Assembly (NCBI GenBank): GCA_001515265.1
Contig: LNDB01000001.1
Coordinates: 62,001 to 126,000, forward strand
DNA: 64,000 bases
Direction of reading: 5' to 3'
From: Candidatus Dichloromethanomonas elyunquensis
GTDB lineage: Bacteria > Bacillota > Desulfitobacteriia > Desulfitobacteriales > Syntrophobotulaceae
The notes under the pieces were generated by a model. It had not been told where the DNA came from, made no database searches, and was given only the letters and a program-made list of their open reading frames with translations. A program made the translations under genes and the position numbers. Positions 25,263-30,051 of this stretch are shown here, in pieces. Every line of letters starts with the position of its first letter. Within the stretch, counting starts at the first letter, position 1.

Positions 25263-25414
25263 ATTTGTATAGGCGTATTAGCTCCGTATACCGACTCGAA
25301 TTATTGCTTATAGATACTCTCTGACTGATGGACAGCACGTCGGTTATCTGTTATATTATTAATAAATAATTCGAATAATCAGAATAATATATATTGGGCA
25401 AAGGAGGGGGGTTT

Positions 25415-26320
25415 ATGGAAAGTTCACTTACTGTTTTCTGCAGAGTGGCGGATACAAAAAGCTTTACTAAAGCTGCTAAATCTCTCTTCTTGTCCCAGTC
25501 AGCCGTTAGTCAACAGATTAGCAGTTTGGAGTCTCATTACGGTGCCAGACTTTTTGTGAGAAGCAAGCAGGAAATCATGCTGACCCCGGAAGGCGAGATT
25601 TTATACAACTACTCCAAACAGATTCTTAAGCTCTATCATCTTGCGACTGATAGAATATGCAAAGAATCGGGTGTTCTGTCAGGAAGTATGATTGTCGGGG
25701 CATCTTGCACCATAGGCGAATACATTCTTCCTCTGATCGTTGGTAAGTTTAAAAACCTTTATCCTAAAGTTAACCTTTTTTTTCATGTCGGAAATAATGA
25801 AAATATTCTTGAAGGCATCCGCCAGAATAAATTTGATTTGGGGTTCATTGGCGAACCCTGTAAAGCCTCTGGTCTGGAGACCGACTTTTTTACACAGGAT
25901 GAAATTGTCATTATCGCAGCTCCTAATCACCCCCTGACGAAAAAAGAAACCATTACGATAGATGAGTTATGTCAGACACAGTTTATTATTCGGGAAAACG
26001 GTACCGGAACGCGTAAATTTATCGAAGATTTTCTGAAACAGTATAGCTTGACACTTTCCGACCTCAACATTTGGTTTGAATACGGTAGCTTTGAATCGAT
26101 TAAGCGATTTGTGGAAACAGGGATGGGAATCTCGATGCTCTCCAAGTGGGCAGTCAAGCAGGAAATAGATCTTAATCTTTTGAAAGAACTGCGTATAGAA
26201 GGACATCTTTTAGTCAGAAAATTTCTATTTGCTTATCGGAAAGAAAATTTAGAATCCCCCTTGATAAATTCTTTCATTCATTTTTGTCAAGAAAATCAAC
26301 TCGAATTGCTATCGACATAA
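25415..26320 (+). CDS. LysR-family transcriptional regulator
   Basis: 301 residues from the ATG at 25415 after AAAGGAGGGGGG; an in-frame longer reading overlaps this RBS. The winged-HTH is at 5-65 (FTKAAKSLFLSQSAVSQQISSLE) and the periplasmic-binding-like effector domain at about 90-295. It is divergent from the Fe-S/CCG gene and probably controls the organic-acid cluster to its left and/or the YeiH-type gene to its right. The effector is unknown. It belongs to the CysL/CbbR-like general class by eye only. Confidence 0.92.
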   Translation: MESSLTVFCRVADTKSFTKAAKSLFLSQSAVSQQISSLESHYGARLFVRSKQEIMLTPEGEILYNYSKQILKLYHLATDRICKESGVLSGSMIVGASCTIGEYILPLIVGKFKNLYPKVNLFFHVGNNENILEGIRQNKFDLGFIGEPCKASGLETDFFTQDEIVIIAAPNHPLTKKETITIDELCQTQFIIRENGTGTRKFIEDFLKQYSLTLSDLNIWFEYGSFESIKRFVETGMGISMLSKWAVKQEIDLNLLKELRIEGHLLVRKFLFAYRKENLESPLINSFIHFCQENQLELLST

Positions 26321-26418: not shown

Positions 26419-26569
26419 AATTTGGCTTCCCGATTCCATGTATTAAGCGGTCTATAACTCTCTTTAATAACTACTATAAATAATAAATATTTTTCATTGT
26501 TCGCCGGCCGTGCTATTCTCGAGTTACCCGGTACGTACTGATGAAATTATAGAAAAACGGAGGGCGATT

Positions 26570-27592
26570 ATGAAAAACATCTTTAAAGGACTTGTCTTAG
26601 CTGCAATACTGGGCTTTATATCCGAATATGTAATACACAACCTGATTGTTATCGGAGGGCAGAAACCTGTCAGTGGAGTGATTATCGCCATATTGCTGGG
26701 TATTCTGGTGAAAAATACTGTCGGTGTCAGGGACACCTACTTGCCGGGTATTAACTTTGCCCTGAAAAAGATCTTAAAACTTGCAATTATTTTACTTGGC
26801 TTAAACTTGAGTTTCTATGCTGTCATTACTACTGGCGCCAAAGCATTAACGATTATTATTATATGTGTCCTGTTTGCAATTACTATTACCTTCCTCATCG
26901 GTAAAAAGTTGGGATTGCCGGATAAACTGGCCGTCCTAATAGGTGTAGGAACAGCCATTTGCGGCAGTACGGCAATTGTCGCCGCTTCACCTGCCATAGA
27001 TGCACGGGATGAAGAAGTAACTTTCTCGGTAGCCACTATCACGCTTTTTGGTATTCTAGCAATATTTATTTATCCGATTTTAGGAAAAATTATGCTTCTT
27101 TCCAATATGCAATTTGGAACATGGGCCGGAACCGCTGTTCATGAAACGGCTCAAGTCATCGCAGCCGGATTTGCCTACAGCGATGCCGCCGGAAAAATTG
27201 CTACTGTCGTCAAGCTGACTCGTACCGTATTACTGGCACCATTAGTATTTATACTGGGAGTTATTTACTCTAAAAAACAAAAAGCAGCCGGAGCTCAGAA
27301 TGTTAATTATTTCAGTATCTTCCCTTGGTTTGTAGTTGGTTTCGTGGCAATGGCCGCCTTACGTACATTTGGCGACAACCTGTTTACCGGCAGCAGCCAA
27401 TGGTCGTATTTTCTTTCTAAAGCAAGTGACCTTGCCAAGTTTCTGATTGTAACGGCTATGGCAGGAGTGGGTTTGCTGACGAACTTTAGCGAAATGAAAC
27501 GGATTGGGGTTAAGCCTTTTATTGTCGGTCTAGTTGCTTCATTGATTATGGCTGTTTTTAGTTTAACTCTGATATTCGCCTTAGGTATCTAA
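26570..27592 (+). CDS. YeiH/UPF0324-family membrane protein (putative sulfate/anion exporter family)
   Basis: 340 residues from the ATG at 26570, which follows CGGAGGGCG; the longer frame from 26510 has no RBS. It has about ten transmembrane helices and the family segment GVGTAICGSTAIVAASPAI. A LysR regulator precedes it on the same strand, the usual arrangement for yeiH genes, though a terminator lies between them. The substrate is uncertain: members have been linked to sulfite/sulfate or taurine metabolism. Confidence 0.9.
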   Translation: MKNIFKGLVLAAILGFISEYVIHNLIVIGGQKPVSGVIIAILLGILVKNTVGVRDTYLPGINFALKKILKLAIILLGLNLSFYAVITTGAKALTIIIICVLFAITITFLIGKKLGLPDKLAVLIGVGTAICGSTAIVAASPAIDARDEEVTFSVATITLFGILAIFIYPILGKIMLLSNMQFGTWAGTAVHETAQVIAAGFAYSDAAGKIATVVKLTRTVLLAPLVFILGVIYSKKQKAAGAQNVNYFSIFPWFVVGFVAMAALRTFGDNLFTGSSQWSYFLSKASDLAKFLIVTAMAGVGLLTNFSEMKRIGVKPFIVGLVASLIMAVFSLTLIFALGI

Positions 27593-27706: not shown

Positions 27707-28258
27707 TTAATACCATACTATTTCAGGATCAATTTTATGTATGTCAGGGGATCCTGTAAGACGCATAGTCCGGCGCAAATCTTCGTTGGTATCGGTGATC
27801 ACTTTCCGCACACCTTCTCCTCCTTCTGATGCCAAACCGGACATTACCATCCTGCCGGCCAAGACCCCGTTTGCCCCTAATGCCAAAGCTTTAAAAACAT
27901 CCGTCCCTTTGGTTATCCCACCATCGACAAATATGGGAATTTTCCCCTCAATAACTTTCACAATACGCGGCAGAACTTTCAAAGGCGGTACTGCACTATC
28001 CACAATTGAACCGCCGTGATTAGAAACTACAATAGCTTCCGCCCCGGCTGCCGCAGCCCCTTTCGCAACTTCTTGCATAGGATTTGGACATATGCCTCCC
28101 AGTCCTGACAGCGGGGCAACCATCACAGGCGTGGAAAATGTTTCCCCAAAAAGCTTCATTTCCGTTGAGGCCTCTCCCGAATCTATTACCCGGGTTTCAA
28201 TCATCAGCGAGTCGAAGTAGTCACGGGTTAGATTGCGGACACTGCGTTTTTCGTCCAT
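27707..28258 (-). pseudogene. FMN-dependent alpha-hydroxyacid dehydrogenase with in-frame internal deletion
   Basis: The 183-residue frame is intact but about 110-120 residues short. It begins normally (SVRNLTRDYFDSLMIETRVI, then FGETFSTPVMVAPLSGLGG) and ends normally (AIVVSNHGGSIVDSAVPP, IPIFVDGGITKGTDVFKALALGANG, SPDIHKIDPEIVWY). The middle of the barrel, which carries FMN-binding strands and substrate contacts, is missing between EVAKGAAAAGA and EAIVV. The two Ala-Gly-Ala sequences at the join suggest recombination between short repeats. It retains an RBS (GAGGAGG) and a TetR-type operator upstream, so it was lost recently or has a new role as a short protein. Confidence 0.8.
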
Positions 28259-28281
28259 AAATACCTCCTCATAGCTTTTAA

Positions 28282-28295
28282 ACCAACCGGTTGGT
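28282..28295. promoter_or_regulatory. TetR-type operator 1
   Basis: Perfect 14-bp palindrome ACCAACCGGTTGGT, 24 bp upstream of the truncated dehydrogenase start. It is identical to the site at 29490 and close to the one at 28961. Confidence 0.75.
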
Positions 28296-28334
28296 ACAAC
28301 CAGGCTATAACATCTTACCCATGACTGAAAAAAT

Positions 28335-28952
28335 CTACTCCTCTTTCCCAGGGGAATATGACGGTAGATAACTGTCGACCAGATACCTGACTAATTCTGT
28401 CATGTCCTTCAAAACGTTAATATCCTGTTTGCTTTTCATCATGAGGATTCCTCCTTCGAGCATTGCTACAATTCCTTGCGCCAGCTTTTCTACCTTTAAA
28501 AAATCTGCCGGTTCAGATGGTTTAATCATTTCCAGCAAAACTAATTTTATTTTTTCTGTCCAATTTTCAAAAACTTCTTTTACTTTTTCGCGAAAACTTT
28601 CATCGTGTTCGCTCATTTCCACTGCTAAATTACCAAATAAACAACCGCATTTTGACCGACTGGTCTTATGAAACATAACAAGCCAGTCAAGCATTTCATC
28701 AAATTTTATTTCAGGGCTTTTGGGGGAACTAAGAATATTTTCCAATAATTGTTTATTAAAGGCCATAAAAGAATAATCTATGACAGCCAATCCCAGTTCA
28801 CGTTTGGATGAAAAATAATAATAAAATTGCCCCTTGCCAATTTGACTTGCCTCTAAAATATCACTGAGTTTGGTATTTTCATATCCTTTGGACCGAATCA
28901 GCAATATAGCTGATTCTATAATTTCCTGGCGTTTTTGGGACAAAATCATCAT
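28335..28952 (-). CDS. TetR/AcrR-family transcriptional repressor
   Basis: 205 residues. The N-terminal TetR HTH spans about 8-55 (TKLSDILEASQIGKGQFYYYFSSKRELG). The C-terminal ligand domain resembles the TetR_C group with CGCLFGNLAVEMSEHDESFREKV. Two adjacent ATGs follow GGAGGA; either may start. The operator at 28961-28974 overlaps its own transcription start region, so it is probably autoregulated, and it likely controls the DsrE-like gene and the truncated dehydrogenase through identical sites. The ligand is unknown. Confidence 0.92.
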   Translation of the reverse strand: MMILSQKRQEIIESAILLIRSKGYENTKLSDILEASQIGKGQFYYYFSSKRELGLAVIDYSFMAFNKQLLENILSSPKSPEIKFDEMLDWLVMFHKTSRSKCGCLFGNLAVEMSEHDESFREKVKEVFENWTEKIKLVLLEMIKPSEPADFLKVEKLAQGIVAMLEGGILMMKSKQDINVLKDMTELVRYLVDSYLPSYSPGKEE

Positions 28953-28960
28953 TCCTCCAT

Positions 28961-29007
28961 ACCTGCCGGTTGGTACGATTATATATTGGCAAGGACTTCC
29001 CTGTCAA
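28961..29007 (-). promoter_or_regulatory. Promoter of the TetR gene with operator 2
   Basis: On the minus strand TTGACA (29002-29007) and TATAAT (28978-28983) are 18 bp apart. The operator variant ACCTGCCGGTTGGT (28961-28974) covers the expected start site. About 40 bp of this promoter are nearly identical to the promoter at 29490-29536. Confidence 0.8.
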
Positions 29008-29025
29008 TTCCGGCTTCTCCTGCCA

Positions 29026-29373
29026 TCAGAAAGTCATTATTTTGATGTCATTCTTTAAGTATTCCGTCAGCGGCTGACCCATAGGTATTACATTCACACC
29101 GAGTCTTTCAAGATTTCCCGTGACGCCATATTGGTCTGCGCATGCCCTGCAGGCCAGTAATTCTACACCTGAATCCTTCATGTTTCCGATATACTCTTGA
29201 AGTTCCTCGTCTTCACTCAACAGTCGGGAGGACGGTCCCCACACGATCAGGGTTACATCTTCCCACCAACCCTTGACCTTGGCATTTAATCCATACATAA
29301 ACACCATTTTTAAGGCAACCTCCCGGTCCGCACTGGTCCAAATGATAACCAGTTTGTCGTTCATTAACGGCAT
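29026..29373 (-). CDS. DsrE-family small protein
   Basis: 115 residues from the ATG at 29373, nine bases after AGAGAGG; an ATG nine bases further up touches the RBS. The fold pattern (KLVIIWTSADREVALKMVFMY, WGPSSRLL and the central ELLACRACADQYG with a CxxC pair) matches DsrE/DsrF-like proteins, which carry sulfur or act in redox reactions. It has its own TetR-controlled promoter at 29490-29536. A direct sulfur-transfer role is not shown, since the Cys arrangement differs between subfamilies. Confidence 0.82.
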   Translation of the reverse strand: MPLMNDKLVIIWTSADREVALKMVFMYGLNAKVKGWWEDVTLIVWGPSSRLLSEDEELQEYIGNMKDSGVELLACRACADQYGVTGNLERLGVNVIPMGQPLTEYLKNDIKIMTF

Positions 29374-29489
29374 AATATTCATCCTCTCTTTTAAACTTAA
29401 GACAAGACAATACTCAGCATTTTTTCTTTAGAATAAATAGGCTGATGCTTTCTTACCTCCTTTTAAATAAATGTATCTTCCAGCAATAA

Positions 29490-29536
29490 ACCAACCGGTT
29501 GGTACAATTATATATTGGTAAGGATTGCCCTGTCAA
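29490..29536 (-). promoter_or_regulatory. Promoter of the DsrE-like gene with TetR operator 3
   Basis: Minus-strand TTGACA (29531-29536) and TATAAT (29507-29512) are 18 bp apart, followed by the perfect palindrome ACCAACCGGTTGGT (29490-29503) over the start site. Spacing and flanks copy those of the TetR gene promoter. Confidence 0.85.
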
Positions 29537-29538
29537 TC

Positions 29539-29736
29539 TCAGCCCGTCAGTGCAATTTTGATATAGGTCCCCATAATCCCTATGGCGCTGAAGATGCTAA
29601 TTAAAAGAAGTTTTTCCAGCCAATCGCTGCGCCGCCGCATGGCATTTTTAAATACTTTCGTTTTACTGAGCAAATAGGCTATCGTCACGATCATACCGGT
29701 ATTTTGGCTAAGCTTAAGGAAAAGCTGGAGGATCAT
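29539..29736 (-). pseudogene. N-terminal fragment of a LytS-type (5TMR-LYT) membrane sensor
   Basis: About 65 residues from the ATG at 29736. The sequence (NTGMIVTIAYLLSKTKVFK, then the late GIMGTYIKIAL) resembles the first two transmembrane segments of LytS-family sensor kinases. It stops abruptly where the protein would normally continue for hundreds of residues, three bases before the promoter of the DsrE-like gene. This suggests a deletion remnant. It could be a small membrane protein in its own right; the RBS is weak. Confidence 0.5.
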
Positions 29737-29823
29737 GGTTATCACCGCCTTAGAGATAACGGGTTATATTCTGCTATCATTCCACATCTTCCCTTTATTT
29801 CCTTCTGACAGGACTGATTTTCA

Positions 29824-29894: not shown

Positions 29895-29969
29895 TGGTGG
29901 GCCCACCTGGGATCGAACCAGGGACCAACCGGTTATGAGCCGGCCGCTCTACCGCTGAGCTATAGGCCC
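29895..29969 (-). tRNA. tRNA with CAU anticodon (elongator Met or lysidine-type Ile)
   Basis: 75 nt including an encoded CCA. The acceptor stem GGGCCTA pairs with TGGGCCC, the D arm is GCTCAGCGGTAGAGC, the anticodon loop is CTCATAA and the T arm contains GGTTCGATCC. The GGxCC acceptor with a CTCATAA loop somewhat favours tRNA-Ile(CAU) that needs TilS modification, but elongator Met is possible. Confidence 0.9.
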
Positions 29970-29976
29970 AATGAAA

Positions 29977-30051
29977 TGGCTCCCCGAGCTGGATTCGAAC
30001 CAGCAACCTACCGGTTAACAGCCGGTCGCTCCACCGTTGAGCTATCGAGGA
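29977..30051 (-). tRNA. tRNA-Asn (GTT)
   Basis: 75 nt with encoded CCA and discriminator G. Acceptor TCCTCGA pairs with TCGGGGA (one G-U), the D arm is present, the anticodon stem CCGGC...GCCGG-type encloses CTGTTAA, and the T arm is GGTTCGAATCC. It is 7 bp upstream of the CAU tRNA and probably co-transcribed. Confidence 0.94.

Follow-up and report, generated by a model that had tools for sequence, protein, structure and literature searches.

A minus-strand cluster in Candidatus Dichloromethanomonas elyunquensis places a TetR-family repressor gene between a dsrE-like gene and a decayed dehydrogenase gene, with a similar palindrome at the start of each. The locus raises the question of whether these genes form a regulon and, if so, which signal it would answer. 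The reading developed here, which is held to be probable, is a local autoregulated TetR regulon in which a thiol electrophile or oxidant would release the repressor and thereby induce tetR and the DsrE-like protein. All coordinates are positions within the window, the whole 64,000-nt stretch of DNA that was analyzed (contig LNDB01000001.1, 62,001-126,000).

Operators and promoters in the window

The genes follow one another on the minus strand in the order dsrE, tetR, and dehydrogenase remnant. The features, listed in that direction, are as follows.

29539..29745, minus strand: truncated lytS-like ORF, 68 aa, its end abutting the dsrE promoter copy
29507..29536, minus strand: dsrE promoter, a copy of the tetR promoter, TTGACA-18-TATAAT, 12/12 consensus, with the -10 ending 2 bp before operator 3
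29489..29504: operator 3, before dsrE, matrix score 25.2
29026..29382, minus strand: dsrE-like gene, 118 aa, with a CxxC pair (Cys78 and Cys81)
28978..29007, minus strand: tetR promoter, TTGACA-18-TATAAT, 12/12 consensus, with the -10 ending 2 bp before operator 2
28960..28975: operator 2, before tetR, matrix score 19.7
28335..28952, minus strand: tetR, a 205-aa TetR-family repressor of the TetR_C_13_2 / NemR-AcuR-like group
28304..28331, minus strand: weak candidate promoter of the dehydrogenase remnant, TTTTCA-16-TATAGC, 8/12 consensus, with the -10 ending 7 bp before operator 1
28281..28296: operator 1, before the dehydrogenase remnant, matrix score 25.2 (maximum 26.8)
27707..28258, minus strand: FMN-dependent alpha-hydroxyacid dehydrogenase-type (FMN_dh) remnant, 183 aa, open frame

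The scores derive from a 16-bp matrix. A scan of GTDB genomes with a three-sequence TetR alignment returned 49 loci, and 48 were retained after the exclusion of L147, where the match covered residues 2-57 only. Two sequences are each present in two collections (L100 is identical to L097, and L101 to L096). The matrix was trained on tetR-upstream sites from 12 of the 48 loci, with the window excluded, while 36 loci were held out and the threshold was 15.5.

A search of the window bore out the positions given in the original prediction: the 14-mer ACCAACCGGTTGGT is perfect in two places, 28282-28295 and 29490-29503, and a third copy at 28961-28974 has two changes. The sites also lie at gene starts, as had been claimed: the start codon is 23 bp away for the FMN_dh remnant, 8 bp for tetR, and 107 bp for dsrE. 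Six places in the window match the 14-mer with at most three mismatches, compared to a mean of 1.81 in shuffled sequences, and one of 100 shuffles reached six. The scan was extended to the 2.08-Mb assembly, which is 82% complete and contains two perfect copies and eight places at 0-2 mismatches (five for the reversed-pattern control), not the dozens that had been named as an argument against a dedicated operator. The five places besides the operators are all inside long ORFs, and no further intergenic site at 0-2 mismatches was found in the whole assembly; since the assembly is 82% complete, further targets may be located on missing contigs. A hairpin overlapping operator 1 was also reported by the promoter scan. 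A terminator is a minor possibility at this site, as the T-tail is weak and the motif precedes gene starts in the relatives.

The claim of duplicated promoters held for tetR and dsrE, whose sequences upstream of the operator agree at 29 of 35 positions (the next best match to this 35-mer in the window has 21). A count by eye over the aligned stretch that begins at ATTGACA and includes the operator gives 42 identities in 49. It did not hold for the FMN_dh remnant, whose candidate promoter agrees with that of tetR at 8 of 35 positions, is not a copy, and is absent from the promoter-scan output. Among 26 chosen sites, 17 are associated with a promoter of at least 9/12 consensus, and nine of these 17 have the 2-bp spacing between the -10 and the operator. 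Elsewhere in the window, a LysR regulator lies beside a YeiH-type putative sulfate exporter (25394-26320 and 26510-27592); the regulator exceeds the cut-off for selenium-metabolism-associated LysR proteins (267.8 against 250), and the exporter scores under its NCBIfam cut-off.

The repressor and its predicted signal

The TetR protein contains the Pfam domains TetR_N (42.6 bits, cut-off 24) and TetR_C_13_2 (62.0 bits, cut-off 27). Its AlphaFold model has a mean pLDDT of 87.3; Foldseek matches include 3bru, 3dpj, and NemR (4yze), and the top ten have TM scores of 0.72-0.77 by query. Residues Cys104 and Lys173 align with Cys106 and Lys175 of NemR; all 22 aligned TetRs share them, whichever of three alignment settings was used. 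According to the available text of one study, NemR uses Cys106 and Lys175 for bleach and Cys21 and Cys116 for electrophiles (PMC7464077); by alignment, the equivalents of the latter two are absent from the window TetR (Ile19 and Ser114). Because the equivalents of Cys106 and Lys175 are kept, the protein is read as a sensor of thiol electrophiles or oxidants, and the loss of the other two cysteines leads to the prediction of a Cys104-centered switch. The window TetR thus probably senses chemicals that attack cysteine.

In the proposed mechanism, a TetR dimer would bind the 16-bp palindrome (consensus TACCAACYGGTNGGTA). At tetR and dsrE the operator coincides with the transcription start and comes right after the -10, where the bound repressor would block RNA polymerase. 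Release would begin with modification of Cys104 by a thiol-reactive electrophile or oxidant, possibly with a bond to Lys173 as seen in NemR of E. coli, and the modified repressor would leave the operator, so that tetR and the DsrE-like thiol protein would be induced together. The third operator would control the former FMN-dependent dehydrogenase gene. The sequence itself records the sites, the promoters, the autoregulatory layout, the conservation of the operator beside tetR orthologues, the types of genes controlled, the conserved Cys and Lys, and the deletion in the remnant; binding, repression, release, thiol sensing, and the class of inducer are inferred.

The genes under the operator in relatives were tallied from ORFs within 450 bp downstream of 72 sites in the 48 loci, and representatives were checked by Pfam. 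A classified ORF was found at 62 of the 72 sites and none at the other ten. Redox and thiol classes included AhpD/CMD (10 loci), old yellow enzyme (6), DsbA (6), KefF-like flavodoxin (4), OsmC (3), AhpC/redoxin (2), thioredoxin (1), and FMN reductase (1), tetR itself was downstream of sites in 17 loci, and the remaining classes were HesB (2), GcvH (2), O-acetylhomoserine sulfhydrylase type (2), Dabb (1), and DUF1330 (1); these counts include near neighbors of the true first gene as well as closely related species, and they overstate independence because close kin (Bacillus, Paenibacillus) account for much of the set of 48 loci. Judged from these gene types, the operator beside TetR relatives in many Firmicutes appears to control mostly stress-defense enzymes.

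The same operators and repressor could instead serve a non-covalent small organic ligand, such as an acid, an acyl-CoA, or an aromatic compound, with Cys104 and Lys173 as structural residues. AcuR, the acrylate-utilization regulator with acrylate as its ligand, provides the best NCBIfam model for the window TetR (NF051457), although the score of 88.2 bits is under the cut-off of 247, so that the protein is not assigned to the AcuR equivalog, and the genes involved are different. The matching Cys and Lys (GC...K) are also found in the alignment with 3bru, which we take to be AcuR, an acrylate sensor; the pair is hence not specific to NemR and may have a structural role or respond to a different ligand. 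In addition, FMN_dh-type enzymes act on hydroxyacids. However, the operator genes in relatives serve mostly thiol, peroxide, and quinone defense, which is a better fit to a thiol stress signal, and a non-covalent ligand is considered unlikely, while still carrying some weight.

Several known systems resemble the proposed regulon. Like E. coli NemR (nemRA-gloA), the window TetR would be an autoregulated repressor with a palindrome just before its gene and conserved Cys106/Lys175 equivalents, and reductases of the OYE kind are among the targets, here in relatives. In contrast to NemR, it lacks Cys21 and Cys116 and shares only about 20% identity with that protein by structure alignment, the half-site differs (the sequence upstream of nemR is TAGACCGACTGGTCTA), and both nemA and gloA are absent from the window cluster. 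Pantoea AltR, as described in the available text of two papers, is likewise a TetR repressor relying on one cysteine, and the Pseudomonas allicin-resistance set osmC, dsbA, trx, ahpD, oye, and kefF overlaps the operator genes in relatives (PMC13178969, PMC7119367). None of these genes is in the window cluster, and the AltR paper has no OsmC, DsbA, thioredoxin, AhpD, flavin, or KefF. In the same accessible texts, the half-site ACCAAC/GTTGGT also occurs in a published IR2, with a spacer of six bases as opposed to two in the window operator, whereas the demonstrated AltR box differs in sequence from the window operator; AltR is likened here by description. Gram-negative TetR relatives on plasmids, among the matches listed, are about 22-35% identical, and AltR-like Gram-negative plasmid proteins are therefore not close orthologues.

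The regulator GbaA has a role in the electrophile response. Together with the Staphylococcus aureus TetR1 regulon (PMC10715087, available text), it represents the Firmicutes TetR regulators of thiol and electrophile stress, again likened by description. The accessible portions of papers on GbaA (PMC12115738) and DitR (PMC9342713) held nothing decisive for the window regulon. A search of the open-licence PMC literature did not find the 14-mer, and for a TetR-DsrE operon in Desulfosporosinus it returned, as far as the available texts go, only apparently unrelated work. The regulon would be a NemR/AltR-like kind of TetR system, a kind already known, and the possible capture of its promoter is an interesting side story.

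Partner genes and possible promoter capture

The DsrE-like protein falls within the Pfam DsrE family (26.2 bits, cut-off 22.7) and scores below the cut-off for YedF (TIGR03527; 21.3, cut-off 110). Its Cys78 and Cys81 are invariant in nine of nine aligned relatives, and a sequence search for solved structures yielded a single relative, 2fb6, which is annotated as a conserved hypothetical protein. The operator ties an uncharacterized DsrE-like protein to a probable thiol-stress regulon. The joining of DsrE and dehydrogenase genes to this repressor had been called an unusual pairing, yet it is not unique. For example, downstream of tetR in Desulfosporosinus FKB, and on its strand, lie genes for DsrE, a flavoprotein (like the Lucifera FMN reductase), a nitroreductase, and an aldo/keto reductase; no site scoring at least 11 was found at this locus (L101/L096). 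In Lucifera (L103), dsrE is directly after tetR, and the gene that comes next has an operator before it; in a Sporomusaceae MAG the two genes are 3.7 kb apart. The dsrE gene of L104 is without its own site, and among 21 further DsrE loci (L042-L062) a strong site was present in L048 and in none of the other 20. These DsrE loci speak against the regulon as read here.

The FMN_dh side of the pairing recurs in Papillibacter (L102), where a 306-aa FMN_dh follows tetR and an operator-like TACCGGGCGGTTGGTA (15.5) lies between them; FMN_dh was found in only one of the 48 tetR loci, a further point against the regulon reading. The window copy matches Pfam FMN_dh with 170.2 bits in two stretches and lacks 109-110 internal residues, including the KGVL segment, relative to L102, L094, and L095. 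The lysine of this segment is catalytic in lactate oxidase. A complete FMN_dh barrel with the lysine segment is not present in the window copy, and the term remnant was well chosen, with about 110 internal residues gone against three fuller relatives. Judged from its sequence, the product has lost its mid-barrel and probably lacks enzyme activity.

The 183-aa product could alternatively be a functional small protein, as the 183-codon frame is open, a good GAGGAGG site is upstream of the start, and the operator is kept. A relic is nevertheless the far better explanation, and a functional role is distinctly improbable, given the segment missing against all three compared relatives, a further truncated FMN_dh copy in G021, and an intact paralogue on another contig of the window genome. 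The paralogue is 63% identical to the Papillibacter protein, and no operator-like site was found in 6 kb around it. In the G021 copy (L093:2586-2840), the N-terminal part alone is open, and its neighborhood resembles that of the copy in G012.

The duplicated tetR promoter suggests how dsrE may have come under the operator. Three cases of capture seem to be present, involving dsrE in the window, dsrE in the Desulfosporosinus genome G051, and a reductive dehalogenase gene in G012, and together they suggest a recurrent route, against which stand the 20 DsrE loci with no strong site and the missing tetR relic in the window copy. Tentatively, and with a likelihood placed slightly below an even call, the tetR promoter-operator may be a portable switch captured by unrelated genes, and the regulon would therefore grow by promoter capture.

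In the window, the dsrE promoter copy carries no tetR relic. It abuts the lytS-like ORF, which is 69% identical over residues 4-68 to its best match, inside a 567-residue open frame in another genome, and scores 22.4 bits for Pfam 5TM-5TMR_LYT, just under the cut-off of 24.6. This boundary is likely a rearrangement junction. Two tRNA genes (29895-30051) are located near the truncated ORF. In G051 (L048:1780-1960; C22), dsrE lies away from the intact tetR; upstream of this dsrE are TTGACA-17-TAAAGT, the operator TACCAACCGGTAGGTA, and a tetR relic of 16 codons. The relic reads LSQKRQESIESAALEI followed by a stop, and it matches the start of the window TetR at 13 of 16 residues and that of G051's own TetR at six of 16.

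In G012, which we take to be Dehalobacter, a promoter, an operator, and about 35 tetR codons run in frame into the reductive dehalogenase gene (L170:2573-4119; G012:C1:1219572-1221118). The relic is identical to the TetR of Desulfosporosinus FKB at 27 of 31 compared residues, and no intact close TetR orthologue was found in G012. The 181-bp stretch is present in one of five genomes of the same genus. The dehalogenase itself scores 224.5 bits for TIGR02486 (cut-off 160.35), and its neighbors encode a NosR/RnfG-like protein and, presumably, a small membrane protein and an ApbE-like start. The cluster resembles the Dehalobacter cfrA/dcrA cluster, and the accessible text of the Dehalobacter CF/DCA genome paper, which covers the cfrA cluster, does not mention TetR (PMC4751268). 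If capture is true, a thiol-stress repressor would control the G012 dehalogenase gene, or the gene would have escaped from it; capture would be a clear case of a local repressor recruiting new genes, and a control element before a reductive dehalogenase gene would be relevant to bioremediation.

Conservation of the operator beside tetR relatives

Close orthologues of the window TetR were found in only two of 60 relatives searched, Desulfosporosinus MAG_BO295 (G051, 63%) and Desulfosporosinus FKB (G044, 65%). Among the tetR genes of relatives, TACCAACYGGTNGGTA recurs upstream, directly after a -10-like box. When applied to the held-out loci, the matrix identified 52 sites in 33 of 36, compared to 0, 0, 0, 0, and 1 in five dinucleotide shuffles. 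No site was found in the remaining three, L101 (Desulfosporosinus FKB), L121 (a cut locus), and L146. Across 251,726 bp of other loci, five places scored at least 11, one of them high.

Exact copies of WACCNACYRGTNGGTW occur twice in the window genome, once in G051, and twice in G012, where one of the two (L169) falls within an ORF and was not considered further. None was found in six examined genomes without a close TetR relative, nor in G044 despite its orthologue. With one mismatch allowed, related sites were roughly as frequent as matches to the reversed control pattern in each of 10 genomes, and single degenerate matches hence carry no meaning. This last result is what could be expected of chance palindromes, or of sites for another DNA-binding protein with tetR unrelated, but the distribution of exact copies, the search of the full assembly, and the result on the held-out loci make such an origin scarcely credible, and it was rejected. 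The site is kept before orthologous tetR genes and their neighbors across Firmicutes, which supports the TetR regulon originally proposed and makes it much the best reading.

The operator can be regarded as a readable signature of a probable thiol-stress regulon, from strict anaerobes (Desulfosporosinus, Papillibacter, and Lucifera) to Bacillus, Paenibacillus, and staphylococcal plasmids. No such site was found with a TetR relative (37.9%) on a Lactococcus plasmid. On a Priestia plasmid (L172) and the S. warneri plasmid pPI-1 (L173), this type of TetR is encoded beside OsmC, AhpD-like, trxB, or trxA genes, with sites; on pPI-1 it adjoins trxB, AhpD-like, and trxA genes, and three sites are present. 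These two plasmid tetR modules are possibly mobile thiol-stress modules.
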